From positions 26,525,804 through 26,589,803 of the forward strand of contig OZ007570.1 in assembly GCA_963931925.1 (NCBI GenBank): a stretch of DNA of 64,000 nt. Direction: 5' to 3'. The position numbers were made by a program, and so were the translations under genes. The stretch is from Onchidella celtica (lineage: Eukaryota > Mollusca > Gastropoda > Systellommatophora > Onchidiidae). The notes below the pieces were generated by a model. The model had not been told where the DNA came from. It made no database searches and saw only the letters and a list, made by a program, of their open reading frames with translations. Of this stretch, positions 4,714 to 58,454 are shown piece by piece (within the stretch, counting starts at the first letter, position 1; each line of letters opens with the position of its first letter).

Positions 4714-7197
4714 TACAGTGTTATGATACCTCTACTCCTGTCTCCTGTTGTCTCCAAAAAGGATCTTTGTCCCTGTATTCTATACTGTACTTTCTTTTGT
4801 GATACAAGTATCTTTATAATCCCTTTCACCTGTTTATTATGTGGCGCAAATGAAATGTAACCTTAAATAAAGATCTGGGCTATAGATCTAACTTCTCACT
4901 ATCTTTGTAAAGTTTATAGTGTATGTCAGCATTTTGGGTTTTCCCAGTTTGAAACATATATACATATTCTGAAGATGAATGTTCTCAGTTTATGTTGTTT
5001 AATGGTAAGTGTTTGTTTATTTAAAGCTGTAAAAAATCAGTTAATATAAATTCTGAATCTGGTGATTTCTTAAAGAAACACAGATTTTTAATGTTGAAAT
5101 GATTGTCAGTTGTATGGTGAAAAGGCTACAGCTTTGAGTACATAATGGCATTTACACACTCCTATTGTGGTTCAATAAAGTAGCCTTCGAATTGTAATAA
5201 ATTACCTGTGTTCAGTCCAGTGTTTCAGGAAGAATAGTCCATGACAAAAAAAAAGGGCAATTATGAAAAGAAACAGTGAAAAAACCAGACATTTTTTCTG
5301 ATTCACAACTAAACTTTGAAGACTGAAATTGTGTCACTGCAACCAGCAAATCTTTGTATGGTGTCAGATTTATAAATAGATTGGCACCATGGTTTCAGGG
5401 GGTACACCAACATACACGTGCCAATATGAACTTCTTGAAATGTTTACATTGTGTATACTATAAGACAGAGGAGAATAAACAAATGCATGGTTAACGTCTA
5501 AAACACAGTGCAAGCCAAATATGTAAGAAACATGTCCTTTTTGGAAAAGATAATGGTTAAATTAATCATATCATTCAGAACACTAACAATAATGAAAAGG
5601 GATGTAGACTACCTCCCCTGAGCACAAAGTCCCAAATTGAAAAAGACCCTATTTGTGATGCCTTCTCTGATTAATGAAGTGGACAGGATGGGGAAAACTT
5701 GCGTTTCACATAGTACTGAAACTCATAGCGACCATATATCATCAGATTTAAACCATTATCTTTGCTCATGGAATCCAAATTGTTAGAAGAAGTAGGCCTA
5801 CTGTATGTAATATTAAGAAAAAATAGTGAAATTTATAATTACAACTATAAAGTGAAAAAGGCGTATAATTGGGGAAAAGTAGGCCTATCAAAGCACTCTT
5901 TATTGGGAAATGTGAAGTTCCTGTAAAAAAAATAATGGTCTCTATTGTCTGTTGCAACCCGATTTGGGGGATACAAACTCCCAGCTATAGTTTTATTTTA
6001 GGGGATGCTAACTGAGATGAGACTTATGGCAGCAGTGTCCCCCATCACATAATAATCTCCACTCTCTCTCCTGAGGAACTTAACATAAATGCACATGTAT
6101 GAAAAGAGGCCAACGGAGGAGGAATAACCTGAAAATGACAGAAAATGCAGCCCATGTTACAAGAGCATTTTCAGTATGTATAATCAATCGTTGTATACTA
6201 GTTGACGTGACCTATGTGTCTTGATACTCCAATTGTGATTGTAGGCAAGATTCCAAAGTAAAATGTTGTTCTAAAATACCTACTTTGGCTAAAATGACAC
6301 CCAATACATAATAACCATGAAAAAATTCCAGTAACGAAGTGCTTATTCGCTTTTATGTGTACACTAGCTAAGGTACCCAGCATTGCCCAAGATAAATATG
6401 TTTATTAGTTTCAGTTCTAGGTGATTATGATGGATATGCTTCACTTTACCAGTTCCAATATTTATTTTGTTGTTGCTCTTGTTTGTTCATTTGTTTCCAT
6501 GTTTTTAGATAAATCTTATTGCACTCCCATTGCACGTTAAAACCAACGCACTCTGCCAGTATTCACAGCGGTGATTGTCACGAAATGGCAATAATCTGCG
6601 TACCAGGCAGCAAGAATGTTTGAAAATGAACACACCAGCAGGAAGAGAAGGCCTCATGGGGTTATGTGTTCCTGAAAAAGAAAAGGATCGGAGACAAAAT
6701 CAGCGACACAAAGCAAACTTAATAATCTATGAAAGAACCTTCATCAAGTTAAAAGACTGGAAGGCTACTGTAAAATTTCAGGCAAATCTAAGTGGCAGTC
6801 GGTATTGTTCAAAATCGGGCGAGAGTATTTATTATATATATATATACATGTGGATTCTGTTAGATCACGGGTAAATAGTTGATGTTCCACTCTGTCCAAC
6901 AAGGTTGAATGACGATGATCCATTTAAAATGCCCCAGGAAACGTGATTAAAAAGTTAAAAGAATATGAAAAGAAATATAGAATATATAATTATGTAAAGT
7001 GATGTCTTAATGTGTGCTATTTAACTGTGTAATTGTGTAATGTGAAATTGGATAAGCACACATGATGTGCTTAAGTCAAGTCCATTTTTTCTTTGTAATA
7101 TATAAGATAATCAGTTTGTGACAGTAACTTTAAACTTTTACTTTTGCTCATTTCAGGTTACTTACATCAGTGATGTAAATAATTTTTTTCTAGTGAA
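4714..7197. other. Upstream region of the BIR gene
   Basis: No protein family is visible. An AT-dinucleotide run is at about 6830-6845. Just before the BIR gene start there is a pyrimidine tract and AG at 7192-7193, five bases before the ATG, and another acceptor-like site near 7156. The gene may therefore have an untranslated first exon in this stretch, which I could not place. Confidence 0.4.
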
Positions 7198-16729
<9,532 letters not shown>

Positions 16730-26811: not shown

Positions 26812-29771
26812 CGTGGCCTTCGTAACTACATGGCCAAACACAATGCCGATATGCAGGTAAGTGACGTCACGGGATGAGGCGGTACCGTCTCAAGGCTGCG
26901 CTCTCTAGGCCAAGGCTACAGGAAACAAAGTTTGAATACCGGCACGAGTACCGGCACTATAACAATGCTTGTGTGTTGACTGCTGTTTCTTGTCTTTGTG
27001 TGGATTTATTAGACTTATTGTTATTCTCAAGATTGGACATTTGTTGTGTCGGTCTCACGTCTTCTCACGTCTTGGAGACCGCACACACAGTTACACTGGC
27101 ATATTTATGTGGTCAGTACCCTCCTAACAGTTAACCTTGTCTTTGTCTCCTCTCCACCTGTCCTAGGGTCGTTGTACATCGTGAGAAAGCAAAGTTCGTT
27201 GTCCGTCTTTGTTCTTGTTTGACTATATATGTAGGATGCCTGGGAGTCCCGTCAGTCGGTGTAGTAGACGTGTACTGTGCAATGCCTATCTGTACAGTGT
27301 TCATTTATATATGAAATTATTTCTGTGTATAACGTATACCTATACAGTGACAGTAACTTTCATATCCGTATATAGACTTTTGTGTGTCGATTAAATGTCA
27401 ACTCTGTATACCATACAGAAGGACTTGCGTTATTCTGTAATATTCTAAAAACCCCACGCACGACACCACAATATTCAATGTGAAAATGCCTAGAAAGTGC
27501 TGTGTTCCAGGTTGTAGAGGAAATTACGACGATGGTGAGAAAGTTTCTGTGTTTAAATTCCCGACTGAATCGACAAGGCGAGATCTATGGCTAAGTAAAA
27601 TTCCTAGAGCTGACTTTACTCCTACATCTCAGTCTGTTGTGTGTGCTAAACACTTTAGTGATCAGTTCCTCATCCGATCTGATTCTGTTACAAGACCAGA
27701 CGGAAGTGTTTTGACGGTGCAAAGATCAAAACCAAAACTTAGGGATGATGCTTACCCGTCAGTTTTTCCAAATTGTCCATCGTATTTGTCTGACGAACCA
27801 GCTCCAAAAAGAAAAACACCGGAGGAAAGGCATAGGGAGGCCCAGCAAAGAGATGAGGAATCATTTTCTGATTGGTTAGAAAGTGACAAAATAGTTACTT
27901 TTTCAGATTTTGGTAACAGTCTAAACAGTCATGTATCAGGGACCGTCTGGATTTATAGGCTACACAACAACGTTGAAAAACATGCCACTACCAGCACCAA
28001 TTTATCCGACGAAAAGGAAAGTCCATACTGGAGTTTTTACAATTTACAAGATTTACTTAGCAGCAAGCAAGCTTTAGTTTCGGCAATTAGAGTACATTCT
28101 GACATGCACGTAGAGATTTTCACACAAGAGAATACAGGTATTGTTCAAGTTCCAAACACATCTTTGAAATGGCTCTTTGGTCAGCAATCTCCCCTTATCC
28201 TCACACCCTGGTCACAGTTTGATACAATGCTATCACACTTCGCCACTGCCAGAGAGGCTTACAAGAAATTTCTTCCTACCTGTTAGATAAAAAAAAGTTC
28301 ATTTATATATTTTACTTGGCAAGTTCCAAACTGACAACCTTGAATTTAGATTTAGTCAGTACAGACAAATGAGTGGATGTAACTTCCACGTGTCGGTCCA
28401 ACAGTTACTTGAAGGAGAAAAAAAGCTCAAGCTAATTAGCGTCCTAAAACTGGTTTCAGCGTCCAAAGGGACTTTAACACTCAAAGATGTCACTGAACCT
28501 CTGGAGGAAACAGTTACCCAACTGAAAGATTCTTCAGCTCAACAGTATATAGAGTTTCTGCCATTGATCCCCGACTGTGAGAACGTCGAATTAACAGAGG
28601 AACAACAAAAAGCTTTAGTATTTGTGTCAGGTTATGCAGTCTCCAAAGTACTGCCGCGCACCAACTGTGACGACTGCAAGAACGAGTTCAGACTAGACAA
28701 AACGCTTCATGTGGAGGGGACTGATGATTGTTACACCTATTTGTCTGCTCTAGACAGAGGAGGTTTAGTGTGGCCGTCTGATCTTGCCGTGTCAATTATT
28801 ACAGAAGCTTTCAAAGTTTTTCAAGTTCTGGTTGGAAAAGATGACAGTGAGAATAAATTTCTGCAGACCACAAACCACAGAATAATTCTTTTGCAATTGT
28901 CCCTGCGAAGAGTTATGGATCTGGAATTATGTCAAGGAAAATGTGAAGAATGAGGGGTTCTTTATGAAGAGGTGGCTGCCAAATGTATCAAACCAGTGGT
29001 AAATATTTTCGTGAACAATTATTCTAAAAGCTTCTGTGACCAGGCATCATCTGCAAATACTTCAAGAAAAGTGAAGACGTTCACCAAAAGGATTTAGTTC
29101 TATCCGTCTGAGCAGCTCCTTATGTCCAGCTAAGGTAAAGCATCTTAGACTGTTCATGTTTGCAAGTTTCCTCTCACCATCTGTCTTTTCTCCTGTCTAT
29201 CAAGTGTGCATGTGCTCTCTCTCTCTCTCTCTCTCTCTCCTTTCCCTATTTTTCTCGTTTCTTTCCTTACCGACACGAAAGATATAGGAGTGGTGAACAC
29301 ATTATACATGTATTAAAATACAACAGTGGCCTAATTTATTATTATGTCGATATTTCCTTATTAAATATATCGGTATGCTGCTTAAGATAATAATATTATC
29401 ATCAACTTACTCAGGCTAGCAATATTGGTGTCTATAATGGTAGATAAGTGAAGTAAGTCGTCGGACAAACTCTAAGCCTTGGCTTCCCGTTGATCTATTC
29501 CGTTTTAAATAATAATTAATAGTAGTAGTCATTTTTTGTGGTCGAATTTTAATACTTGCAGATCTAGTGTAAACATTCTTTCATCTTAAGGCACATGCAT
29601 GCTACATCTTGCTTTGAGTAATACGACAACACAAGTACCGGTACGGTACACATTACGTTGGTACACTGATAATTATCAGGTTATCAAAACACCTCTGCCG
29701 AAAGCCGAGCATCGCCGCTTGCTGTGACGTCACGTGCCCGCTGTGTTTGGCCATGTAGTTACGAAGGCCAC
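26812..29771 (+). mobile_element. P-element-like transposon 2, internally deleted
   Basis: Terminal inverted repeats of about 30 bases: the left begins CGTGGCCTTCGTAACTACAT at 26812, and the right is its complement ending near 29771, with both reading on through CATGGCCAAACACA. GGTTATAC flanks both sides exactly (26804-26811 and 29772-29779), an 8-bp duplication. GTGACGTCAC recurs just inside each end. It encodes a THAP protein and a separate C-terminal fragment, but the catalytic middle is deleted. A (CT)n tract is near 29214-29240. Confidence 0.85.
27486..29097 (+). pseudogene. THAP-domain P transposase lacking catalytic core
   Basis: The ATG at 27486 opens a THAP zinc finger: C5, C10, C53 and H56 in MPRKCCVPGC ... 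VVCAKHF, with the expected P26, W35 and F57. The frame runs through a low-homology linker to a TAG at 28284-28286 (265 residues). About 25 bases on, another frame holds the C-terminal part: GKFQTDNLEFRFSQYRQMSG, which carries the Glu of the DDE triad, then VSGYAVSKVL and RGGLVWPS. An in-frame TGA at 28951-28953 precedes the last stretch, ending at 29097. The section with both catalytic Asp residues is missing. The intact THAP part could still bind element ends and act as a repressor, as truncated P proteins do in Drosophila; that is inference. Confidence 0.8.
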
Positions 29772-40496: not shown

Positions 40497-43400
40497 TCAC
40501 CAAACAAAGGCTGCTTTGGCTTGTTTGACAGATCTCTGAATATGAGCCAAATTGTCGTGACAAATATGCGTAGTATGTTGTATCACTGCTCGGTTCCTCT
40601 CCACCTGTATAGCCTTGGTCTGAAGATCACTGCTTGTGACTGTGATGATGTTGGTTGATTTTGGTGCTGGGACCTCATACTGCTCACACAACTTCTCCAC
40701 TTTGGTATCAATTTGTTTCAGTTTGGACTGTGCCAGGGGGAACTCGATCAGCATTGCCTTGGTCACAGCAGCATACTAGGAGTAGGAGAAACAATACACG
40801 TAACAAGTTATAAGAAGGTTATTATTTGCACGTGCAGCACTCCAATCCAATGACGTACACTAAGGAGCTGAACTACAACTAAAAACAAGATTTAACATAA
40901 GATCAATTTATCTTGCTCCCACTCACACACATTAACAAGACTTAATCTACTGGCATCCTCAACCTCTGAGACCAAAAGGGACATCATTCAAAGAAAACAC
41001 TCCTAAACAATTCAGTTTTTCAAATGTGATGATATTCGGACTTTCCCTGGTGTCAACAACACTTATGTTGTTCCACAATTTAGGCCCACCAACAGAAAAA
41101 GCCTGTTCACTAAGTGGCAATCTTACTGCTGTGACATTTCCCTCCCATTAAAATAAAAGAATGTCACACATTATCATAACATACGTCTCTCCCGAATATA
41201 AACTTGACAGAATGTACTTAGTATTGATATGAGGAGAACAAAAGAAAGTCTATGCCCCACATAATTTTGTTTGAAACTAGGGCAAATATGAAAACTGACC
41301 TCTTTGTTGAAGGTCTTGATGGTGTATCTGATTGTCTTGTCAAGCTCAGCATCCTCCGTGCTTGCTTTAACTTCTAGTACACAAAAGTCATCTTGCAGAG
41401 TCAGCTGAGAGCAAGAAATGGACAGAATCAATGGTCTCTAATAATGCAGTATTGACATTTCTTCAGAATGTCATCATTACTTCAATATTCATAAGTCTGC
41501 CAAAGCTCATTCAGCTCTACACCTAATTTTACTCTTATTCTATTTAACCAAACATTTTCTTAGGTCAATTTAATAACTACATATCTTAATCTTTACTCAC
41601 ATTTTTTCTGTCAAGATATCACTGTCATAGTTAGCCCCATTTATGGAAGCACTGTCACTCTACATTCCACTGCAGTGCAAAATGTATTGTTTGACAGTGG
41701 CAATATCAAAATCCTCACTGGGCTAAAGCTTTTGAAATTGAACGTAGTATTCATATTCTCTGGAAACTTATGTTCTTACTGGGCTGTGATAGTTTTCATG
41801 TTCCATTCACTTTGCATGATGTTTGTCCTCCATTGCAGGACTTTGCACGTTATTCCCATTTTTTTTTTTCCAGTAAAATGAGAACATCATTTACCCAGAT
41901 ACCTCTTGCATTTGCCATGTTTCCCAATAATGGATACGTAATTCAGAATTCTCCACCTTTGCAAGCAGAAGTCTTTTTTTATTACGCCACCTACAGTAAT
42001 TGAATTTTGCATGTATTTTTCAAATACAGTGGAGGGTGTTCTTAAGTTTGGATTTTTTTTATTGGTTTTGTTTTTCAATCTTTTTGAGTTTGCTTTGTGT
42101 CATTGACTGCTCCCCCCCGATCCCTTTCTTTCACGAGCACATAACCCGTGGCGTGAACACTATGTGCCAGCTGATATAAACTACTCAACATGCTCGTTGT
42201 TAAGTTACACCACAGGAATACCTGCTACAAAGGTAGCAGTGACGGGGAAAGTGATAAGGCAGGGCAGTGGTTGGGGGTCTGCACGGAGCACGGCTTTTAT
42301 GCTTGTAATAGATCTATAAACCTTTGGTAAACTTTCATTCCTCTATTATTAATGAGTGGGACATGAAAACTATCACGACCCAGAAGGAACATAAGTTTCC
42401 AGAATATAACAATATGTTTAATTTTCTTCACATTTGCACATCTGTGAGGAAGGTTTTGCAAAAACAATAAGTTTTAGCCTTTCCTGCCCATTTTAATTGC
42501 TTCCCAAGCCCTAGGACAGTCCATAGTCTATCAGTGCTCATTTCGTTGGAACAAACATTTTCATTAAGATAGGGGGAAAAAAAGAAATAACTAAATGATG
42601 AAACAGTTTTGCTTACTTTCAGCTTGAGGTCCATGGAACTTAATTTATCCCTCAGTGCCACTAAACAGTTTTGCATGCTGGCCTCTTTAGTGGTCTCTAT
42701 CACACCAATATCCACACACTGCTCTGCAAATTTAGTCAACGAGTCATCCTGATAATGCTGAAGTGATGTCACACGATAAATGATTTCCTCGGCTTTGGTG
42801 AATTCTGCATCAATCTGTGAAATTTAACACATATTTATAATAGGAATAAATGCCAACTTGAACATTTTTCTTCAAAAAAAAAACATGTCATTCGATGATT
42901 CAAAGACAATGTATTTCATATGACACTACACACAACGTCAAGCTGCTTCAACCTGTAATATAAGTGTTATTTTGTCTGACTCACCATTTTGTACAAACAG
43001 CAACAAATTTGGGAATCATTAAAATATTATTTGTAGGTAGACCAAACTGCCCAGCTAAAGGGGAGAAATCTCATTTTGGCATAATTTTAGGCCAACATTA
43101 TAAGGCTACTACAGCTGTGTGTTTATGTAAAACGGCATGCGTCCTACATCAAAATAAAGTTTAATTCTTCCTCTGTCAAAAAATACTATCTTTCGTATCG
43201 TTTAATGTGTATGGCTGTGCGTGTTTATTGCTTGAACAAGACATAGTCTTACCGTTTTCACCCTGAGCTGCGCGTAACAATTTGACCCCCTCATAATAAA
43301 GGATCGCAGAGCGTCGCGCTGATGTAGGGCACGTATTTGAAAATATCTCACACAGAAAGCCAGACGAATGAGATTTAGTTCAATGTATCGTGTTTTGAGT

Positions 43401-46400
43401 TGAAATTCCTTTAAAAATCATTTGTTGAAAAGTTTGTTGACCAAGAAACTGGTGGAAACTTTAATAGCTCAGGATCAAAATTATATATATGCAAATGAAC
43501 CTCAGTCTTTGTGATATAAGGGTATGCCAAAATCAGACATGGGGTATGTTTTGGCGCAAAGCGCCCACTGTTTGATTTCGTCACCTTTAACTGACTCCCA
43601 GTGCTAGGTCAATGGTGGAATACGGCTGACCTCCTTTTCAATTAAAAAAAACAAAAAACATTATTTTTGTCTCCCATGTAAGAGTTCCAAAAAAAAAAAA
43701 AAAATCAGCCATAACGTACACCCCCTTGGCTTGGAGACAGAGAATTTTCAAAGGCTTGACTCGATAAACAATCATTCTATGTATGGTCAAAGTTGGACTA
43801 TCGTGCAATTTGCAAACGGTAGCAAATTCGAGGTGTTTTTTCACTTTTGAAAATACCATAACTTTCAAAAACTTTAAGCCAGAATAATAAATTTGCTTTC
43901 AAGGTTCTTAGAAAAGCAAGCTCCATCACATTAGACAATAACTGATGAGTTATGATAAAAAGTAAAAATCAGTTTCAACTACCCATTATTAGCCTTTCTC
44001 TAAATTAGCAGAAACAAAGGTGTAACATAAAATGCAACAATACTTGGAAAGATGTATTTTAATTTATGCAGCAAAATAAACAATCTTTAAAGAGGGTTTC
44101 AAAATCCCAACTTCACAGATTGATGTAAAGTAGTTACATGTAGATAAATACAAACTGTGTATTCCCAGTATGAAAGTGAACATACATCATTATCTCAAAG
44201 ATCTTGGTTTGCAACACATCTTCACTGTGAGGAATTTTGTTATTCAATTTACCCCAAATGGTAATTTACTACCACTTCCTCTACGAGTAAATCTGACCAC
44301 AATTTTATGTTGCTGGAAATATCAAATGCTGTTTGTCTTTCCCTTTTCTTTCTATAAATTCGAATAAATTTTGCCAAACAAATAGTATATTTTACTTTTC
44401 CTGGCTGTGTCTCTAAACAAAGGACACTTCCTAACCCAGTCGTGCTGTGTTCTCACTAAAGAGGGCATGGCCTAAATGTAGTCTCTATCGGATTCCCTCT
44501 CAAGCGGCAAATGAACAGCACATGAGGAAAAAAAACACTCAGGAGGCCAGGTGGAGGGTACAATTAGTATCAGGGGTCCAGGTCTGAGAGAGTTAACAAA
44601 TGATTCAATTCTATGATTGCAATGATGGATGACATTTTTTAGCTAAATCTCACCTCTTCAATCCCAATGCTCCGTAGTTGAGGTTTATGTTCATAGCGTG
44701 GCCTTTTGGTTTTCGCAATTTTTTCTGCCACTTGCCATCGTCTCTCCACATAATGTTTCTCAAGTATATGCCGCAGGAAGTTCTGTATGGCTGCATGTAC
44801 CGACAGATCATTGGCTTTGGCTGAGACCATCACACTAAGGGAAATGCAGAAAATTATGACTTTTTGATAAAAAACAACTGCAATAAATTATCTAACAAAT
44901 TATGGAACATCCTCATATAATAAATAAAGAAAAAATGTTGATTCAATTTGATTAATCAATAATGTGGCTTACATAATAGTAATGACATAAAAACTTTAAA
45001 AAAAAACAACATAAAGCTAACCTAAAAATCTGATAAAATATTTTTTTACAAAATAATAAACAATGTAAAACCTTCTTTAAAAAGAAAGAAATATAAAATT
45101 AACACGCAAATCTATGTAATACAGAAAATAGTACGTTTCTTCAAAAAAAATTAATACAAAGGTATAAAACAGAACCAACTACGATACAATAAATGTGTGT
45201 CCCTTGACACATGTTAAATGGGAACTCATCATCGCCAGAAAAGATCTGTCACAGCCAATTTTTAAGGTCAAGCAAACTGAACTTTGTACATCTTTCCAAA
45301 AAAGAAAAAGCGCAGCCTGAGAACAAGTCCTGCTAAGAATTAACCCTCGTCCCACATTGGGTGAACTCGTCCTCATAACGCCCCGTGTGGGGATAGACAG
45401 TGGCCAGTCAGCCGATCATTCATGTGTTGCCAATAACCTCGGCGGCCGGGTCAATCGGGTCCTTTTGAACATGTGTATCATGTTTACTTTAGGACGCAAT
45501 AACAACAATAGTGGTGGATAAATCTTCAGTGACCCATATGATATTTGGATAAAGTACTTGTAATGATAATAATAATTATGCAGTAAGTTCTATTGTTCAA
45601 TGGAAGGCCCAAAATCAAGAATTTTCTGCATTTACATGCCGTTTAACACACGTTTTATCATTAACTCAAGACCTCTGTGCTTTTTCTGTCCCTAAGTCCG
45701 GCCATTCAGGTGAACAAATTATTTTTTAAGCTAGGCGATTAATTTACTAACCACATGTATCGTTCTACGCCCGTGCAGATGCGGGGCTCTCTTGCAGAAG
45801 AGGGACAGCAAAGAATACATCTGACGTGATACTGCGTGTCGTAAGAGGCGACTAAAGGTGCAAAGGTCCTGGTCTCCCGAGAAGAGCCAGTTGGCGGTGG
45901 GCCAACTACCCACCCTGTAAAAATAAACCAGTTACAGAAACACAAGCAAATACTTTAAATCAGTCTTTTATCTTGGGAGAAGGGGGAGCATCTGCACCTG
46001 TAGATTCAATGAAGGACAATGGACAAAGCCGAAAGGACTCCACTGGCCTGACTGCTCCTGCATCAAACAAGTCACTCCGGATTGCGTCGTGGAATGTCCG
46101 CTCCATGTATGAAGCAGGAAAGAGTGCCCAGGTTACAATGGAGATGAGGCGATACAGACTGCACATACTTGGAGTTAGCGAGACCCGCTGGATACAGTCC
46201 GGACTGAAACAACTTAATTCTGGAGAAAAGATTTTGTATTCTGGAAGGGAGGACAAAAAGCATACAGAAGGAGTAGCGATCATCTTGAGCAAGCACGCCC
46301 AAAGGTCACTGAGGGGATGGGAACCCTACGGAAGGAGAATTATATTGGCATCATTTACTACAAAGAACAAGAACATCAACATGAACATTGTGCAGATATA

Positions 46401-49400
46401 CGCCCCAACAAATGAAGCAACCGATGAGGACAAGGACGATTTCTACAACCAGCTTCAGGAAATAGTTGACACATTGCCAAGAAAAGATGTGAACATTATA
46501 ATGGGAGACGCCAATGCCAAGATAGGACAGGACAATACAGGGTATGAGGACATTATGGGGTGCAATGGTTTGGGACAAATGAATGGGAATGGAGAGCGGT
46601 TTGCAAGTTTCTGCGCATTTAACAGCTATGTGATTGGAGGTTCAGTATTCCCACACAAGAGGATCCATAAGGCCACTTGGATTTCACCGGATGGAGTAAC
46701 TGAAAACCAGATTGACCACTTTTGCATCACCCGACTATTCAGACGCTCACTGGAGGATGTCATAGTACAGAGAGGAGCTGATGTTGGATCTGACCATCAC
46801 ATGCTGCTGGCAAGACTCAAACTCCGCCTCAAGAAACAAGGTACCAGAGCAGGAACAAAGAGGAGAAAGTTTCAAGTGAGCCTTCTGGATGGAGACAAGA
46901 AGGAAGAGTTCCAGCTGACACTGAGGAATAGATTCAAACCCCTTGTTGACCTCGAAGGGACAGTAGATTTGGAGACTCACTGGGCTAAGGTAAAAGGAGT
47001 ATTTACATCGACATGTCAGGATTGTCACGATTAAGGTTGATGACCTTGTACGCCACGAGTATAGAGGGGGGTAAACTTAGTAGGGGAGAAGGGGAGTTTA
47101 AAGTTGTTGTCGAGCATGAAAGATTAAATATCACGAGGAAGGTCGGTGGCCTTGTGCGCCACGAGTCTAGGGGGGTGAGCTTAGCAGGGGAAAACACGGT
47201 TTTTAACATTGTTGACGAGCGTGGATAGATACACACGACTCGCTTTAAACTAGTCGCGTGTGCAAAAACCTCGGGAGTATAAGTAGAGGAGAAGCTCGAC
47301 ACACGTGGTTCCCAAATTATTCATTCCTAGAGGAAGACGGAGAGAGAAGCGGTCCGGGCGACAAGTGGAAGGTCGTGCCATGGGGACCAGGGGTATTATG
47401 TATGTGAGGAATCTATGAAGGTTCCCCAAGTTATTCATTCCTAAAAGGAAGACGCAGAATTTATCGGTCTGGGCGACAAGTGGAAGGTCGTGCCAGTGGG
47501 GACCAGAAGTGTTAGGTGTGTGAGGGATCCATGATGTTCGCATGTATTTTCCAATAAGAAGAATTTAATCGGTCCGGGCGACAAGTGGAAGGTCGTGCCA
47601 TGGGGACCAGAAGTTGAGGAGTTCTGATGATAGGATGGGAACCCATCAGAAGCTCGTGATTTGCGATGGCGGGTGTGAACCGTCGATGTGCTGTGTGTTT
47701 GCAGAAGAAGAGTCTTTGAGGACGGGATGATAACCCCTCAAGGAACAAGTAATCTACGATGGCGGGTGTGAACTGTGTGTTCTTATTTGTGTGAAGCCAG
47801 GGACGTCTGTTTCCCCTTTCGTCGAAATTAAAGATCTAGAAAGGATTGTGTGAACTCTGGAGAAGTGAAACTGCATCAACGAGGAGGGCAGCTGTTGACA
47901 GAGACTATTAAGTATACGTAGTTAAGTTTATAGACAGAGGGATTAGATCTAGATGTGAAACGGGGAATAGATAATAGCCATGATCCCCAAGAGTAAATTT
48001 GAAGTATCTCTGTTTTTGTGATTATGTATGTGATTATCATGAGCTGAATGTTTTGACATAAGTTTTGTCATGCATTTATAATTAAATATCGTTTAATTTA
48101 AATCTCACTCCATGTGTCCGTTGATCGCTGGTCTGCTTGCTTGGCTTGTTAGCTGGGTTTGAAAGGTAAATAAGTTAGGTACTCATCACACACGTGGTCG
48201 TGACCATTTTCACACACGTGATCGTGACAAGGATGTTCTTGGGGAAAAGAAAGTGGAACACAAGGAATGGATCAGTCAAAAATCACTGGACTTGATAAGG
48301 ATAAGAAGAGACCTAAAAGAACAGGTAAATGCAAGTCGTACAAGAAGCTCAAGAGTTGGTAACCAGGAAGAGTACCGAGCATCAGCTAAAGAGGTCAAAA
48401 AATCAATTAAAAAAGACAAAGAGTTCATAGGAATGTTAGCAGAGAAAGCAGAGAAGGCAGCAACAGGAGGACACATGAGGATCCTCTACCAGACTACAAA
48501 GACTCTTACTGGAAAATATGGAAAACCTGAAGTTCCTGTCAAGGATTACAACAGGAAGGCTATTTTTGGAAAGGAAGCTCAGGCAAAAAGATGGATAGAA
48601 CATTTTAACAGTCTCTTGAACAGACCTCCACCAAGCAACCCACCCGACATTCTACCCGCAAGAAATGATTTACCGATCAGTTGCGCCCCTCCGACTAAAG
48701 CAGAGATTAATGATGCCATAAAGCAGTTAAATCGAGGCAAGGCATCTGGACCAGATCAGATCCCACCAGAGGCGCTGAAGGCAGATGCTGCTGGGGCTGC
48801 AGAGGGTCTGCACTCACTATTCTCGAGGATTTGGATCGGAGGCAAGTTTCCAAAGGACTGGAAGGAAGGACACCTCGTGAAGCTTCCAAAAAAAGGGGAC
48901 CTCAGCAATTGTAGTAACTACAGAGGAATCACATTTCTCTCCACCCCAGGAAAGGTTTTCAATCGGATTATTCTCAAGCGAATACAGAATGCAACAGACC
49001 CAAAACTTCGGGAGGAGCAAGCTGGTTTCAGGAGTAATCGATCAACCACCGACCAGATCGCCACGCTGAGAATCATAGTAGAGCAGTCGCTAGAGTGGAA
49101 CTCCCAACTGATAGTGAACTTCCTTGACTACGAGAAGGCCTTTGATAGCATCGATAGAGAAACACTGTGGAGAATATTGAGACATTATGGAATCCCAGAG
49201 AAGATGGTGAACCTTATCAAGAGCATGTACGAGGGGACAAGTTGCAGAGTCGTACACGATGGTGAGCTTACTGACAGCTTTGATATCAAGACTGGTGTTA
49301 GGCAGGGTTGTTTGCTGTCCCCATTTCTGTTTGTCCTGGTGATTGATTGGCTTATGAAAGAAACCACCAGTGGAGGAAGAAATGGCATGCAATGGACCCC

Positions 49401-52400
49401 ATGGACACAGCTGGACGATCTAGATTTTGCAGATGACTTGGCACTATTGTCGCACACACACGACCAGCTGCAAGCAAAGACTACAGCTCTAAAGAAAATT
49501 TCAGAATCTATTGGATTGAGGATACATCCTGCGAAGTCGAAGGTCCTAAAAATTGTTGCACCCCCAAGTGCACAAGTCAGAGTAGGAGATCAACCACTGG
49601 AAGATGTAGAGTCCTTCTGCTATCTTGGTAGTATCATTGACAATAAGGGAGGAACAGAGGCAGAAGTCAAAGCACGAATTGGAAAGGCACAGGCAGCTTT
49701 CACGTCCTTAAGCAAGATTTGGAGAACCAAGGATATATCTCTAAAAACAAAGCTGAGGATATTCAACTCGAACGTGAAGTCAGTCCTGTTGTATGGATGT
49801 GAGACTTGGAATGCGTCTCAGGCCTGCATAAAGAGAATCCAAGTTTTCATCAACAGATGTTTGAGGAAGCTACTTAAGATCAGATGGACAGACAAGGTCA
49901 GCAATGAAATTGTATGGAAAAGAACAAGACAGAGCCCAGTCAGAGAGGAAATTGGTAGGAGGAGGCGATGGAGATGGATCGGCCACACTCTCAGGAGGCC
50001 AGGAAACAGCATCACGAAGAAGGTATTGGATTGGAATCCCCAGGGCAAGAGATCAAGAGGAAGGCCGCGCGGAACGTGGAGAAGAGCCAGAGAAAATGAT
50101 GTGCAACGAAGCGGAAAGACTTGGAATAATGTAAAGAGGCTGGCCCATGATAGAGAGGGATGGAAAGTGTTTGTTGGTGGCCTATACCCTGATCCAGGGT
50201 GAGAAAGGCAATGATGATGACATGTATAGTGGCATTGCCTTCTCCCTTCTCTACTATGTAAAGCTTCGACGTACTATGATGTTAATTTTAGCAAGAGATT
50301 TGATTTCCAACTCGTAGAGTACATACTTGTACCGAAAGGCGGTTTAATCAAAGCAACATAATATCTCTCTAATTTATTACCACATCAAATAAAGACAACG
50401 ACCAACAACAAAGTCGGTCATTTTCTCCCAGTTTTCCCTGATGAAAAACCTACAGACGCCCTTATGCAGCATGCCCTAGTATTACATCGAAATTCATAAT
50501 TACAGAAATAGTATGGTTTCTCAAATACGCACATGGCCCCATTCTTCTCATTTCACATGTAGACGACAACTAGCATCAAAGTAAAAGTTCCCCAAGATTT
50601 TCCCCTGTTCGAACTTCAGACCGTCAGTACCATTACATGAGTATGAAGAATAGTTACGAATAGTTGCATCATAATAAACATAATCGGACGATATCATTTT
50701 GTTTGATATAGTAGGGGTGACAGGATAGATGAACACGCGAAAACAGTGTGGGAAAAAAAAACTTGAAAAAAACAATAGTCGCGGCAACCGAATAAACAAA
50801 ATACGAGGAGCAGTGCTGCCATACAATATATTGGCCTCCTGCAGGACCTGGTTTGCAGTATGTAGGCCACAATATTGGCCTCACGTGTCTCGCATGTGGC
50901 ACGGGGAGGCCAATATAGTGGTTTCCCACAGGACGAGGGTTAAATAGTTAAGAAGGTGATTTACCAGAATGTTCATCTAAGATTCTGATACAATAGCCAT
51001 TTCTGCCATCTTATCAAGATATAAAACATACCATGAACAGAAAGAAACAAAACGTGGAACTGACCCACCTTCCAACAAAACCATCTACAGCTACTTCTTC
51101 CAGCAGTTTTACACAGTCGGCGGCCATCCTTATCTGCGAGGTATCATGAATTTCTGTGAAGTAAAGTTAGTAAACAGTTTATTCAAAACAACCATGGTTG
51201 GTTTACAACAAATGTTTCCACAAACTGACAGAAAAATCACTTGCCAACTTGCCTGGCATAGAACACTTAACAATAATAATATGCCTTCTGCTTCTCTGCA
51301 AAATTTTCCTTCCGGCTGCAAAACTCACCATCAATTTCATGATTTGCATTTCACTTTTGCATTTCACCAAAAATATAAGTTCCAATTTGGGTTGATTCCT
51401 CACATCAAATTCAATGTACTCATGAAGTACTGTTGGTATAATCGAACCTGATTCATAGCCCTTCTACATGTTGCAAGAGCGAGCTGATCTTGAAGTTTAG
51501 TAATATGATTTGTGTCAGTAAGAGAAAGGCTTTGTTTTTCCAATTTTGTGAAGTGCATGATTTCACTATCATGGTTCACAGTATTTTTAAATTTAGAATA
51601 TGCAACAAATGAGGGGCATTTAAACTGATGTACTTAGTACAGACTAGGTTTTAAAATAAGTCATGTGAAGAATAGTGACACTGGTCACTGCCAAATTTTG
51701 TTACACTTTTACAAATATACAAATCCAGTTGGATTTATTGATGGTAAATGTTCAGAACCCCAGTGGTTCTGAAACTTGTAAAGTGTAAAAGCACATACCA
51801 GCTGTTTTGTCACTTGTGGTTTTTTCACTTGTATCAGCTGGAATGATTGTCACTTCTTCTCTCCCCTCCCCAGAGAGCTGTGAGTTCAGATTTCAGATAT
51901 AATTTGAACACAATAAAAATTCAACATATAAATGATTATGCCATAAACATTTCACACTCAAAAGTTAATGGTACAGTAGTCTCTGTCTAAGAACTCGCCG
52001 CCTTAGAATCCGATCCGCCTTAGAACCCGCTGTTGCCGTGAAACCGAATTTTTTCACTGTAATTTACATGTGTAAGAACCCGCTCTGAAACGAAAAATCC
52101 GCCTAAGAACCCGGCACTTGACCGAGAGACAAGCACACTTTTATGTAAAATGTCCATATATTAAATGCAAAATTCTCTTTCAAGTAGACTGGATAGAACA
52201 AAGCCACACAGTACAGTGAAAGAGAACGGGTGGAGGGAAGGTAGGGGGAGGCGAACCGTTCAAGGATGGAGCCCAGTTACGTCTTTCGTGTGCAAGCAGG
52301 CCACTCCTAGACTAAATTAGCATAGTCATCACCTAACATCTATTGTTGTCTGACTCGAGGGGCAGAATTTATACGTAATTGACCACCTGCTTTGTTTGCA

Positions 52401-55400
52401 CGGCACATGTACTTAGGGCTTATTGTGGTTATTATATATAATATTACACAAGGTATCACTGGGCCTAGTGTTGTCTAAAATCGGCATCTGTAATTCACAA
52501 CTTGATTGTTCAGTCTGAATCATTCCATTCGTTACACATCACTGTAAGAAAAGAGCATTCTGCTAGCCATAAGCCGTAACTTTGACCATTCGCAAAAAAA
52601 AAAAAGAATTAAAGAAAAAAATGTCCAACGCATAATTTTCATTATGAGGTCACGACCCAGGTCCGAGCAATCAAGGGGAATAAGCCATGGACACGGGTGG
52701 TCATGGGTGGCATCCTTTGGCATCCGCCTAAGTCCACGGTCCGCCTAAGAACCCGCTTTTTCTGTCTCCCGTTGACCGGGTTCTTAGACGGAGACTACTG
52801 TATTGCATTCCCTCATGAAAATTTTTTTTGAAAAAAGAGGCAAGTCAATGAAATATACCCAAAGCTTATGTGAAAATATTTCTATTACTATTAGGAGAGA
52901 CAAAATGATGTGTCAACACCATAAAAACCTAGACATATCTAAAATTTCCTTCTTTTCCAGTGTCTAAAATGTATTTCTTCTATGATTATTGATAAACCAA
53001 CAAAGCCCAAGACGGCATGGTAAGGAGTGAAAGAGACTATAAGGCTGGCGTGTGCCCCAGATGGGTGGCTTGGCGCCCACAAATTTTGCTTTCATACAAA
53101 CACAGTAGGCACTGTCCATGCAGCGGGATAAAGTGAGCAGTGCCTATTGCGCTAGTGTGAATCAAAATTTATGGACAGCCACCAATCTGATGCATATGCC
53201 AGCTTTGGTCTGTTTCACCCCGAAGGCTGTGGTACTGTTTATACTATTACCAAAGCCACACCTACCAGATCATGTTTGTTCCCCAGGAGAAGAAAGGGGA
53301 TATCATTCACAGATTTGACCTTCTGTCTCTCATTCTCCTCTTCATCAACTTCCACTCTGTTCTCCATATGATCTTCTGTGTCATGTGACGACGTGAAAGA
53401 AGCTGTGTTCAAGACCACCTGTCGCCATAGTTTACCTGACTCCACACTCACTGGGTCATTCAAATCAACTACCACTAGGGACACCAAACAAAAAGAAAAA
53501 AAAGGTAAAACTGCCAATAAATAGTAAAAGATCATTCGAAATGTGTTTGAGTTTAATAACGCATCGGCATGATAACTGTCACTTTGCGCCTCTCAGAGTT
53601 TTTCGTAATGTCTTTTGGGCTAGCTTTCAGCCCTCAGATGCCTATAGGTGAGATCAGATAAAAGTGAAGTTAAAGAAATATCATGCGGAATGCTGACACA
53701 AAAGAAAAGCAAGAAAGAAAAAAACAATTATGAAGGAGGTCATGCGGACTCCAGTTTGCAAATTATTTATACAGAATGACTGTTATTGTATAATATTATA
53801 AAATAAAAGTGGGTGTTAACAACAAGACTTAACTTTTTCGAAGCTCAGACTGATCGTGCTGAGCCAGTAGAAAAGTGATTAATAGATATCTGACCACTAA
53901 TAAAACCAACTTATTTCATGCCATGGTAAATCTGACTTGGTGTACTTATGACAATTATACACGACAATTATCATTTATGTTATTAAGAAATGTGTAAGTA
54001 AAGGATGAGGGGAAAATGAATATTTCTTACATACCAATGACAGCATCAAGATCCCTGAAGTAGCTCTGATGCAGTGGAAGATCTTCTTTTCCTGGGATGT
54101 CCCAGAATGTGATAGGGACAGTTGCATGACTGGGGACATTCAACTTTCTCACAACATTTTCTGGCAAAAATACGAATGTTACTGCATTTACATTGAGGGT
54201 AGGTGGAAATATATAGGACCTACAAAATCTGTGTGCTTATGGAAAATTCCCCATACATCGCTGAAAATACCCAAATTTGTCTGCACTATTCTGCATCAAT
54301 TAAGTCAGATAATTTTGCTAGTCTTTCTCCTATACAACACAGGATTAACTCATTCCCTACAGTAAATTTCATGGGCCTGGATGGGAACTCTCAACACTAT
54401 CCAGCCTGAAATTAAGGGATGGTTCAAAATTGTCTCTTTTTTGCACTCAATATAAACACAAGATGTAACAAGTAAAGGAAAATCAATGAACCAGGATAGG
54501 ATTCAATATTTTGAAAATCTTGCTTAGATATTAATCTTGGAAAAATCAATGTCCACTGTGGTGAAGAAAAAGTCCACAAACCGAATACATGTATTCGGCT
54601 TAGTCTTGTGAATGGGTTAAAAACAAATAAAAATCACAAGCTCTACAAAAAATATATGGTCATTTACATAAATAATAAACAATTCCCAGAGTCGGTCAGC
54701 TGCTGGAACCTTGTTAAACTTGAACCAAAAAGTTTGGGGCTATTGTTAAGAGACCTCAGCATTTTACATAGAAAGCAATAGCTGAGCAGTGAGCTTCTTC
54801 TTCTTCTTTCTTTAAGCCTCTTGATTCCTTGAGGAATATAGGGCCTCAGCAACACTCCTCCAATGTATGCAGGTTCTGGCAGGTCCTCCTTAGCTCGGTC
54901 CATGTCATTCCGGCTGCCTTCACCTCAGCATCGATACTCCTGTGCCAAGTCTGTTTAGGTCGACCCACTTTCCGCTTTCATTGTGGATTCTAGACCAAAG
55001 CCTGCCTGGTGATGTTGGATTCAGGATTTCGTAACGTGTGGCCTATCCATCCCCATTTCCGTTTCTTTATCTCAGTTTCGATTGGGGCTTGTCTGCAGTG
55101 AGCACAACTCAGTATTTTCTCTATTTAATTTGGCATTGTTATTGGACTACTGTGCCCTAACAAAGACCTTGAAGCGAGGTTTAACCAGGTCGTGGTAGCT
55201 GACTGGCAAAAATAGGAACTATTTATATAGATAGTCACATGGAGGTGCAGCTCAAAATCAACACAAATTCAGACTGGCATAACCGAAATGATTTTTGAAA
55301 CTGGCAAGTTAATCTTCCCAACGTTTTTGTATCACAAACAGATGTGCAGATGCTTTACTTCAAAAACCATGTGCATGCAATTAATTCATCCTAAAGATGA

Positions 55401-58400
55401 GATTATCCTTTTGTGTTTATGTCTGGCTAGAACTACTAAAAAGAAATTATAAATCAACCTTTCCAAGCAATCTGCTGCTCCAGTTTCTAATGGCTGCATC
55501 ACACAATTATTTCTTCATACTATCATTATCAGACTTGTCCCCCATCCCGGTCAATTTATTGAATGAGAACCTCTTCTCATCACTGTTTAAGAATGATGAA
55601 GACAAGAAGCTTTTGAAGATTCTATGTGTGGTGTACTTAATGACAAAACTTACCAATGACAACTTTATAAGTAGTAATGTAGACTGGAGAAAACTGGTTA
55701 TGAATGTATCTTGCAAGAACTCCAGTTTTTCCCACTTCTGGATCACCTAGTAAATTTTAAATAAAAAAAAATAAAATCATGAAACCGTTACATGAAATGA
55801 ACACACTGCCGTCTTAATATTTCTATTGTTGCCCTTCAGGCCTCCAAATTTTCTTACTTTTTTCAATTAAATTTTCTGAATTCTGCTGCATACTCTGGTA
55901 GCTCTCAACTCACGATGTGTTATGAGGTGAAATTAGCTTTGAATAATAAAAATGTCTGTGCTCCTCCCACTGCAGTTTTCAAGAACAAAGTAATAATGTA
56001 TAATGTATAGCATTTATATAGCGCATATCCATTTAAAATGCTCTATGCGCTTTATAGAAACAACATGTCAACCACAGAGCAGAATGGAGCACCTGCGAAG
56101 CGCTCAACACACTGCACTGCTTCTTTCTCTCTCCCTGTCTCGCTCACTCTCTCTCTCTCTAGATCTATCTCTCTCTATCTCAGAGCAAATTGTAACGCAG
56201 CCTGTTAGGCGCAGTTCACAACCCACATATATCAGTTCACAACTCACATCAGTTCACAACACACAACTCAAATAATATTTGAATATTTATTAATAACAAT
56301 ATATATTTAATAATGAATAATAAATTTTGTTGTTGCTGGTGGGGGGGGGGGGGGGGGGGGCGGGGATGATATGGATAAATTTTAATCTATTAATTTCAAT
56401 TTTGCCCGAGCAGCGGCCTTTCGGCTTGCTCTTTACGATTTCCAACTGCCAAGGTATCTTTAACGTGCGCAACGTGCACACGGGCCCTCCGAATTTTTTC
56501 GTCCTTATCCGAGAAGTCTATGTACTCGATCCCACCCCCCAATAGGACCAGGGACTTGAAAATATGAGAAAAATCCAATTTCCAACATGCCTGCACTGCC
56601 CGGGTTTTCAACCCGGGACCCTTGGCATGAGAGGCGAGCACCTTGCCTCTAGACCACCTTGTCCCCATAATCACCACTCCATTAAAACAAATTGTGTAAT
56701 AAAACTGCAAACAAGGTCAAAACTAAACATTTTAATGGTTCCACTCCAGAACTATATTTCAGGAAATCTTTGCCTGCATGACATCAATCTTTCTCAATTA
56801 AACCAGGTTCAAGTTATTCAGAAATTTAGAACCACTTTATATGCTGCCCAGATCATAGTTCAAACTGGTCCCTGTAATTCAAGTTTATGCTTTTTCAACT
56901 CTTCTGTTGTTTCTTTTTTTCAGATTTTTGCTCTCTAGTATGGCTAAGAATGATGACAGGTATAAAAATTCTATAAATGTCAAAAGAATAATAATTCACG
57001 TTTATTTTTCTGGTATTGAACGGAAAATATTAAAAATTAGCTCTGACCCAAATCACAAAGTGTGCACTGACAGCAGTTATAAAAACACTGACTATTTTTT
57101 TTATTATCAACAACAATGTAATTTTCATTAGAGATGTCAGCCTGATTCCACCTCTCCTGGCACCCAGTTTGACTCACCTACAATTGCGATCTTCAAGCCT
57201 GGAACTTCCACCGTCTTTTGGAATGCTTCATGAATAAAGGGGAAAAAAGTATTTATAAACAAAATGTGAGGTACAGATCTTTTCATTCAATTTGAAGGGA
57301 AAGAAAATTATGTACCAAATTATAGAAGCCAATCACAAAATTACAGGAGACTGATTTTGTTCGTTTTTTCCAATATTCGTCAAAATACAAGCATGCCAGA
57401 TTCTGAATTTTTAGCAGCGAATTTCAAGACAGCATAATACAGAATTAAAATTGTGTCACACCACCCTATTCTGCATGTTTTCCTACACAACTACTGATTC
57501 TCACTTCTCGTGGTTATTCAGTAAAACTCACAAAACGAAGGTAACGTTTGCATAAAACCACGAATTAATGTATTCACGAAAATGCACAGGGGGAAGAAAC
57601 TCGCAATTTTGCTCCAGGAAGCTACCAGAGTGCTCCAGCCATAAATTTATTCACTGACAACCCTCCTTGCATAATTTCCAATGCCTCCATTTTCTACCTT
57701 TCTTGAACCACTCGTTGAACACAGGATTTCATATCAAAACACGTTTCGTGACATAACTTATGCCAAGCAATATGTTTCCGCTACATATCAATATGGATTT
57801 ACTGCTTAACAGCTGCTTAAAACAGGTTAGTAAAGTGATACTGCATTCAACTATCTGTCCTCAGTAAATTCAAATCTGTGTGTCTATGAATTTATGTGCC
57901 TCTGACCTTGAGATCATACGAACTGATGCATTCTGCTCAACAAAAGTTCTTCTTGTTCCATGTCGCAGTGTGCATTTATTTTTGAAGTGATCAAGATCAA
58001 TTAAAACTATTTGAATAAATGTGTATCATGTTCTACCTATGGACATAATAGTCTAGATCTAGATCTAGCCTTAAGAAATTTTAGGGAAACATTGTGACCC
58101 AGTATAAACAATGGTAAAAAAGTTGTGCTTGCAGATCTTTTAACATTCCTGAAGCATGATCAAATTTTACTTTAGGCTGATAGCCCAAAGGCATGTTAAC
58201 CCCAAACGGCTTTGTTTCTGCTCAACCTGGCTCAGTGACAGCACAATGGAATAGCACAGTGTTGTGCTAACTCAACTGTAAGTGTCAAACATTTTAAATC
58301 ATGCTTTTGTTTGTCTACCTGTGGCATGTGCAGATGAACAGGAGCCCATTTTAATACTTGTTGTGTAGGCATGAACTAATCAAGACTGTTTATCTTTCAC

Positions 58401-58454
58401 ATGTCACATTTTCCTAGGATGAGCAAAACGTATCGTTTGTTTACATGTCGCCAT
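40497..58454 (-). CDS. Rab-like GTPase with long C-terminal extension
   Basis: Eleven exons, in coding order: 58454-58445, 57225-57178, 55746-55654, 54160-54035, 53474-53266, 51877-51799, 51153-51069, 44834-44654, 42814-42617, 41404-41300, 40775-40497. Together 1413 nt, 470 aa, every junction GT-AG with matching phase. The GTPase fold occupies residues 15 to about 240: P-loop GDPEVGKT (20-27), switch I around T44-T45, WDIPGKE (70-76), NKHD (158-161) and SAK (221-223). An acidic insert (about 119-146) and a loop between G4 and G5 lengthen it. The position of the catalytic Gln (WDTAGQE in Rabs) is Lys75. Residues about 225-470 look helical and charged and match nothing I know. The C-terminus is AKAAFVW, without prenylation cysteines, so membrane attachment would need another route. 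Exon 1 (10 nt coding) is the least certain; the other ten are strong. Confidence 0.85.
40960..41145 (-). pseudogene. LINE C-terminal fragment in Rab-like intron
   Basis: On the minus strand a frame reads [20 protein letters not shown], then [12 protein letters not shown], the recognisable C-terminal block of CR1/L2-like ORF2 proteins. It lies in the last intron (40776-41299) and has no upstream RT motifs. Confidence 0.55.
43036..43983 (+). repeat. TIR repeat family A, full-length copy 5
   Basis: It begins GGTAGACCAAACTG (43036) and ends CAGTTTCAACTACC (43983), with the same internal order as copy 3 over 948 bases. It lies in the Rab-like gene's intron 42815-44653. A poly-A run near 43688-43704 interrupts the alignment. 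Confidence 0.8.
45973..50202 (+). pseudogene. LINE endonuclease/reverse transcriptase ORF, LTR-split
   Basis: The first part (45973-47022) is an AP-type endonuclease: [32 protein letters not shown] and GSDHHMLL hold the usual catalytic residues. The second part (48235-50202) is reverse transcriptase: [51 protein letters not shown] and the FADD box at 49426-49437, then [12 protein letters not shown] and LLYGCETW. The two parts are in the same frame across the LTR and its duplicated AGGAT; apart from that insertion I see no stop or shift, about 1005 codons in all. The motif set and short 3' end suggest the RTE clade. The stop at 47032-47034 belongs to the LTR, so the enzyme is inactivated. Confidence 0.85.
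47023..48229 (+). mobile_element. Solo LTR 3 inserted in the LINE ORF
   Basis: It starts TGTCACGA and ends TCGTGACA, a perfect 8-base inverted end. AGGAT flanks it on both sides (47018-47022 and 48230-48234). A TATAAG is at 47278. It contains tandem partial repeats: GGGCGACAAGTGGAAGGTCG recurs starting near 47357, 47472 and 47577, and CGCCACGAGT recurs near 47050 and 47157. It has no internal retroelement sequence, so it is a solo LTR of about 1.2 kb. The ends resemble solo LTR 1, but the interiors differ. Confidence 0.85.
51605..51797 (+). repeat. Duplicated intron segment, copy 1
   Basis: This block, lying next to the donor site of the exon 51799-51877, is repeated at 61441-61633 with high identity over its last 150 bases, for example GAAGAATAGTGACACTG and AATCCAGTTGGATTTATTG. 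Confidence 0.7.
51974..52800. mobile_element. Pogo/Tigger-like MITE, copy 3 (different family)
   Basis: TA duplications lie at 51972-51973 and 52801-52802. The left end is CAGTAGTCTCTGTCTAAGAA and the right end inverted is CAGTAGTCTCCGTCTAAGAA, near-perfect terminal repeats. CCGCCTTAGAACCCG-type motifs recur at both ends (near 52008, 52092 and 52740). There is no transposase. It sits in the Rab-like gene's intron 51878-53265. Confidence 0.8.
53022..53222. mobile_element. Palindromic MITE, family M copy 2
   Basis: The arms are inverted: AAGGCTGGCGTGTGCC ... GGTGGCTTGGCGCCC ... AAATTTTGCTTTCA on the left, and CAAAATTTATGG ... GCCAGCTTTGGTC ... TTTCACCCC on the right. It shares arm and centre sequence with the element at 8983-9186. 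It ends about 45 bases from the GTPase exon 53266-53474. Confidence 0.75.
54795..55125 (-). pseudogene. 5'-truncated RTE-type LINE end
   Basis: Minus-strand reading gives [22 protein letters not shown], then [20 protein letters not shown], the C-terminal end of the same general LINE class as 45761-50219 (there [17 protein letters not shown]). Internal stops are present and the tail is GAA-rich. It lies in the Rab-like gene's intron 54161-55653. Confidence 0.65.
56005..56667 (-). mobile_element. tRNA-derived SINE plus companion repeat, copy 2
   Basis: The minus strand begins GGGGACAAGGTGGTCTAGAG (A box TGGTCTAGAGG) and GGGTTGAAAACCCGGG (B-box position), then the body ACCTTGGCAGTTGGAAATCG and a tail near 56325. 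The companion unit with ATGCTCTATGCGCTTTA occupies 56005-56320, as in copy 1. A G run is at 56341-56360. It lies in the intron 55747-57177. Confidence 0.75.

Follow-up and report, generated by a model that had tools for sequence, protein, structure and literature searches.

The window analysed here, 64,000 nucleotides of contig OZ007570.1 (positions 26,525,804 to 26,589,803) from Onchidella celtica, carries a gene on its minus strand that is predicted to encode a Rab-like GTPase with a long C-terminal tail. The gene occupies positions 40497-58454 of the window, from an ATG at 58454 to a stop codon that ends at 40497. Eleven exons with consistent phases, all separated by GT-AG introns, join into 477 residues and a stop (478 codons), and no stop or frameshift interrupts the 477 codons. 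The original prediction had given the gene identical limits and likewise eleven exons without a phase error; its length of 470 codons fell short of the 478 found here. A non-LTR retrotransposon (LINE), antisense to the gene and outside its product, sits in the intron that separates exon 7 from exon 8. Its open reading frames span 45856-50202 on the plus strand: an endonuclease ORF at 45856-47034 (Exo_endo_phos, 7.5e-9) and, about 1.1 kb away, a reverse transcriptase ORF with a DUF6451 at 48163-50202 (RVT_1, 2.7e-35).

Several other features lie on the plus strand of the window. Two exons encoding BIR (inhibitor of apoptosis) domains, at 7183-7746 (3.1e-20) and 12962-13315 (2.2e-13), may belong to a single IAP-type gene, separated by transposase-like ORFs. 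The transposase-like pieces, at 9637-11420, contain the N-terminal (7.2e-33) and C-terminal (1.2e-7) domains of a TNP-like RNase H and are presumably P-element-like. At 27441-28953, an ORF with a THAP domain (3e-16) precedes an open frame of 220 residues, for which Pfam gave no match at E 0.01. A long tract of short-unit repeats, which reads as DRQT or CLSV repeats in several frames, lies at about 7800-8050. No tRNA genes or Rfam families were found within the window.

To assess the exon model, we ran an ab initio scan of the minus strand in which AG...GT segments were scored for splice-site fit and codon preference, yielding 452 candidate exons. Its training set comprised 18,120 bases in 40 pieces of protein kinase and Ras-family sequence from the same genome; its splice weights were approximate, and the remainder of the window, itself partly coding, provided the codon background. 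Exon 1 (58445-58454), outside the scope of this internal-exon scan, supplies the start codon and residues 1-4 (MATS) and has a weak donor score of 0.2; about 20 bases upstream of its ATG lies CCGGAAGT, which we take to be an ETS-like motif. Exon 2 (57178-57225, rank 24) encodes the first strand up to G1, exon 3 (55654-55746, rank 39) the G1 P-loop GDPEVGKT and switch I with its threonine in YITTYK, and exon 4 (54035-54181, rank 69) the G3 motif WDIPGKE. The acceptor of exon 4 scored -1.4, and overlapping variants with a different acceptor ranked 25 and 30. Exon 5 (53266-53474) took rank 2, with rank 1 held by an overlapping variant, and encodes the VVVDLNDP strand, then an acidic insert and the G4 motif NKHD. 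About 26 residues after G4 come from exon 6 (51799-51877, rank 85, acceptor score -1.8), and exon 7 (51069-51153, rank 19), with strong splice sites, directly precedes G5. Exon 8 (44654-44834, rank 11) holds G5 (VSAK), the final helix of the G domain and the start of the extension, which continues through exon 9 (42617-42814, rank 10, modest acceptor score), exon 10 (41300-41404, rank 14) and the terminal exon 11 (40497-40775). The last of these encodes a predicted 44-residue helix and the stop codon, and appears in the scan as truncated variants only, the best of them at rank 7.

Seven of the nine internal exons were thus recovered exactly among the top 45 of the 452 candidates, the other two being exons 4 and 6. 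Of those 45 rows, 10 fall within the LINE and the remaining 35 coincide with or overlap exons of the model, one of them in a different frame. The stated frame was the best of six in all nine retained exons tested (exons 1 and 7 were left out), in exon 8 by a very narrow margin. Compared with open windows of the same length, codon scores reached P ≤0.05 in five of the nine (those beginning at 53266, 51799, 42617, 41300 and 40497), including the tail exons 9, 10 and 11 (P 0.0135, 0.0055 and 0.045), and gave P values from 0.06 to 0.13 in the remaining four. Synonymous preference taken alone fell below 0.05 in one of the nine. The sequence signals thus support the gene model well as a whole and weakly exon by exon. 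A variant that skips exon 6, using a donor at 53262, keeps the frame and yields 452 residues; exon 6 is possibly a cassette exon.

The stretch between G4 and G5 required separate attention. Exon 6 leaves one base and exon 8 needs two, so at least one exon must lie between 51799-51877 and 44654-44834. We assumed a single bridging exon, for which two candidates with the right phases pass the splice thresholds: one lies inside the LINE, and the other is 51069-51153, adopted here as exon 7. Its junction with exon 8 reads ...GFVGSVMVSAK. A first model of 468 residues had used 51431-51488 instead; this exon has a donor score of -3.6 and a codon score of -0.06, and it was the only one of ten tested exons whose stated frame was not the best of six. 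It was rejected in favour of 51069-51153, which fits better. The two models do not differ in the tail or in the G domain as far as exon 6. Pfam and PDB searches were repeated with the corrected model, and the NCBIfam, own-genome and contig-collection searches described below used the 468-residue model.

All five G boxes are recognisable, as originally predicted, though G3 is atypical. The nucleotide-binding motifs G1, G4 and G5 are present. G3 reads DIPGKE at residues 78-83, where classical Rabs have DTAGQE, so that lysine stands for the catalytic glutamine and proline for the alanine before the glycine. These positions correspond to Gln61 and Ala59 of Ras, where a change at either is expected to impair hydrolysis; both substitutions should therefore impair GTP hydrolysis here. 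Switch I departs from the classical pattern as well: the RabF1 motif, IGVDF in classical Rabs, is replaced by YKVVI.

In its N-terminal half, the G domain is clearly homologous to Ras and Rab proteins. The Pfam Ras family (PF00071) matched residues 15-125 with an E-value of 2.7e-14 and 53.5 bits, against a curated cut-off of 21.6, with weaker matches to Roc (4.8e-13) and Arf (5.9e-8); the NCBIfam model small_GTP matched the 468-residue first model at 4.4e-13. Searched against PDB in the 452-residue model, the G domain matched 210 distinct sequences at E ≤0.001, and 58 of the 60 listed were Rab, Ypt or Sec4 proteins, the other two being RhoA. The best match was Ypt7 (1e-10), followed by Rab38 (1.8e-8), with Rab7, Rab21, Sec4, Rab29 and Rab32 also present; the similarity to Rabs is thus distant, reaching E 1e-10 at best. 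The second half of the domain is much diverged, since its 61 residues alone found no PDB match up to E 10. HMMER aligned the stretch across the junction of exons 7 and 8 with Rab38 (HGFVGWFETSAKEN), although this stretch alone earned only 2.0 bits (i-Evalue 1400). Among 20 Ras-family pieces from the same genome, six matched the G domain, the best being an Arf-like piece (L048, 26.4 bits) and the next a Rab-like one (19.9 bits). The labels of these pieces were assigned in this analysis, that of L048 from its WDIGGKD motif. Because the set consists mostly of partial exons, with L048 among the few full-length pieces, we did not use these scores for classification.

Beyond G5 (VSAK, residues 227-230), the chain continues for 247 residues. 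This agrees with the roughly 245 originally counted. About 21 of the 247 still form the final G-domain helix, leaving a true extension of about 226 residues (252-477). The extension had been described as helical, without a match and without prenylation cysteines, and the analysis supports this description. No prenylation cysteines are present at the C-terminus, the last cysteine being residue 457 of 477. The tail matched no Pfam family above its cut-off and nothing in PDB up to E 10. Two Pfam candidates, PCDH15_12th (17.3 bits, cut-off 27) and DUF3912 (12.6 bits, cut-off 23.1), scored below their cut-offs and were taken as chance. We ran AlphaFold without an alignment on two of the four tail-coding exons, each by itself, and both were predicted with modest confidence to be mostly helical. 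Exon 9 gave three helices (mean pLDDT 70.7), and exon 11 gave helices at its residues 14-32 and 48-91 (mean pLDDT 71.7), the latter being the 44-residue helix, whose central blocks reach a pLDDT of 94-95. The contrast between heptad a/d positions and the rest exceeded that of shuffled sequences in three of five tail segments picked by eye (uncorrected P 0.014, 0.012 and 0.022) and showed no significant pattern in the other two (P 0.10 and 0.32). A putative coiled coil is the natural reading of the tail.

We looked for relatives of the gene in its own genome (1.14 Gb in 43 contigs) and in two contig collections. No paralogue emerged from the genome: all eight matches at E ≤0.001 fell within the gene itself, for a query that contained 51431-51488 and not exon 7. 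Pattern scans returned 25 pattern matches and no relatives in a genome contig collection, and three pattern matches and no relatives in a viral one. These scans reach close relatives only, neither collection is expected to contain animals, and one of the six search peptides was derived from the rejected exon 51431-51488.

A GTPase followed by an unmatched helical region could reflect the fusion of two neighbouring genes in the model, one for a GTPase that stops near exon 8 and another, made up of exons 9-11, for a helical protein. The original prediction had itself envisaged a division into two genes, between the exons at 51799-58454 and those at 40497-44834. The join between these latter two halves is fairly firm as judged from the sequence, because exon 8 carries G5 together with the ~33 residues that open the extension, and because the phases flanking the gap call for at least one bridging exon, a place filled by exon 7. 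Exons 9-11 appear less firmly tied to exon 8. Their links to it are introns of phase 0, their coding signal and the fact that no other start is evident between exons 8 and 9. In favour of two genes, introns 8, 9 and 10 all have phase 0 and do not by their phase alone connect these exons to exon 8, and reading through the exon 8 donor leads to an early stop after VRFS. The acceptor of exon 9 scores a modest 0.9. The interval between exons 8 and 9 offers just two phase-0 ATG-to-donor candidates over the donor threshold, of 1 and 14 codons, although a separate gene could also start inside exon 9 or have a first exon that is non-coding. On balance, we consider two genes improbable. Still less probable is a decaying pseudogene or a gene disrupted by the LINE. 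Retrotransposon ORFs do span 4.3 kb of intron 7, and the glutamine-to-lysine and switch changes could reflect decay, but the element sits within an intron, 477 codons run free of stops and frameshifts, and the tail exons retain the coding signal reported above.

The ancestry of the protein offers more room for doubt. Conceivably, though we think it rather doubtful, the gene is a lineage-specific derivative of the group of Rab32, Rab38 and Rab29 (Rab7L1) in which prenylation disappeared and a helical tail was newly acquired, with no relation to the RabTitan proteins discussed below. All three are prenylated Rabs of normal length, and all three are among the PDB matches listed. WDI rather than WDT at G3 and the GFVG before SAK resemble Rab38 in the alignment; however, the stretch containing GFVG and SAK is the one that scored 2.0 bits alone, the 61-residue C-terminal half had no PDB match, and Rab38 reads DIAGQE where our protein reads DIPGKE with an acidic insert and a long tail. 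Moreover, the top score belongs to Ypt7, alongside hits to Rab7, Rab21 and Sec4. Rab7 and Ypt7, for their part, show WDTAG-E at G3 in the alignments as opposed to WDIPGKE, and they end in prenylated cysteines. The large Rabs Rab44, RASEF/Rab45 and CRACR2A/Rab46 also combine a Rab-type domain and a coiled coil in one chain, but their Rab domain is C-terminal, whereas ours is N-terminal, ahead of the tail. A different and unlikely reading is that the gene represents a lineage apart from RabTitan, found in some invertebrates, in which the glutamine-to-lysine change would lock a Rab-like module in the GTP-bound "on" state and a coiled-coil tail would replace the lipid anchor.

We moderately favour a RabTitan-type protein, an atypical Rab-like GTPase that would bind nucleotide, hydrolyse it slowly and be positioned by its helical tail. 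RabTitan was reportedly named by Elias et al. in 2012; the name refers to large size, and a long chain is a RabTitan trait, comparable to the 477 residues seen here with ~226 past the G domain. The passages of PMC3425129 (2012) that concern these proteins describe them as distant Rab relatives from several kingdoms without C-terminal cysteines. Distant similarity to Rabs, the missing cysteines and occurrence in a metazoan are all shared with our gene, a good likeness in character as compared by description. The same passages report that one RabTitan each from Branchiostoma, Dictyostelium and Naegleria scored below Ran or Rho/Rac of the same species with a Rab model. This differs from our protein, whose listed PDB matches are mostly Rabs, and the 58 of 60 could indicate a more ordinary Rab descent than that of RabTitan. 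The Ras-family pieces of the same genome point the other way, with the Arf-like L048 as their best match, although it is one of the few full-length pieces. PMC6057913 counts RabTitan among patchily distributed proteins and states that animals have lost many of these. The gene is probably a member of a known but little-studied group and not of an undescribed class: the earlier label "undescribed" is weakened by the gene's fit to the RabTitan description in PMC3425129, and "invertebrate-specific" by the span of RabTitans in that description, which extends to Dictyostelium and Naegleria. Our literature search turned up no account of an invertebrate Rab carrying a tail of this sort, which does not imply its absence from print. 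RTW is, according to PMC4736243, an alternative name of RABL2.

If the gene is indeed of the RabTitan kind, its N-terminal Ras-superfamily G domain would bind guanine nucleotide through the intact G1, G4 and G5 motifs, and GTP would be hydrolysed slowly, or outside the usual GAP-assisted way. Carrying no prenyl groups, the protein could not use the Rab escort/GDI cycle and would not move on and off membranes through prenylation and GDI. The tail may instead position it, either as a dimer or as part of a larger complex, and the nucleotide state may tune this tail-based assembly rather than attachment to a membrane. The G domain would then signal through, or stabilise, the complex built by the helical tail. 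A scaffold role, as had been suggested for the gene, is plausible from its sequence, with both the tail and the glutamine-to-lysine change in its favour. The complete gene model provides a concrete sequence for studying how a GTPase of the membrane-traffic type may work without prenylation.
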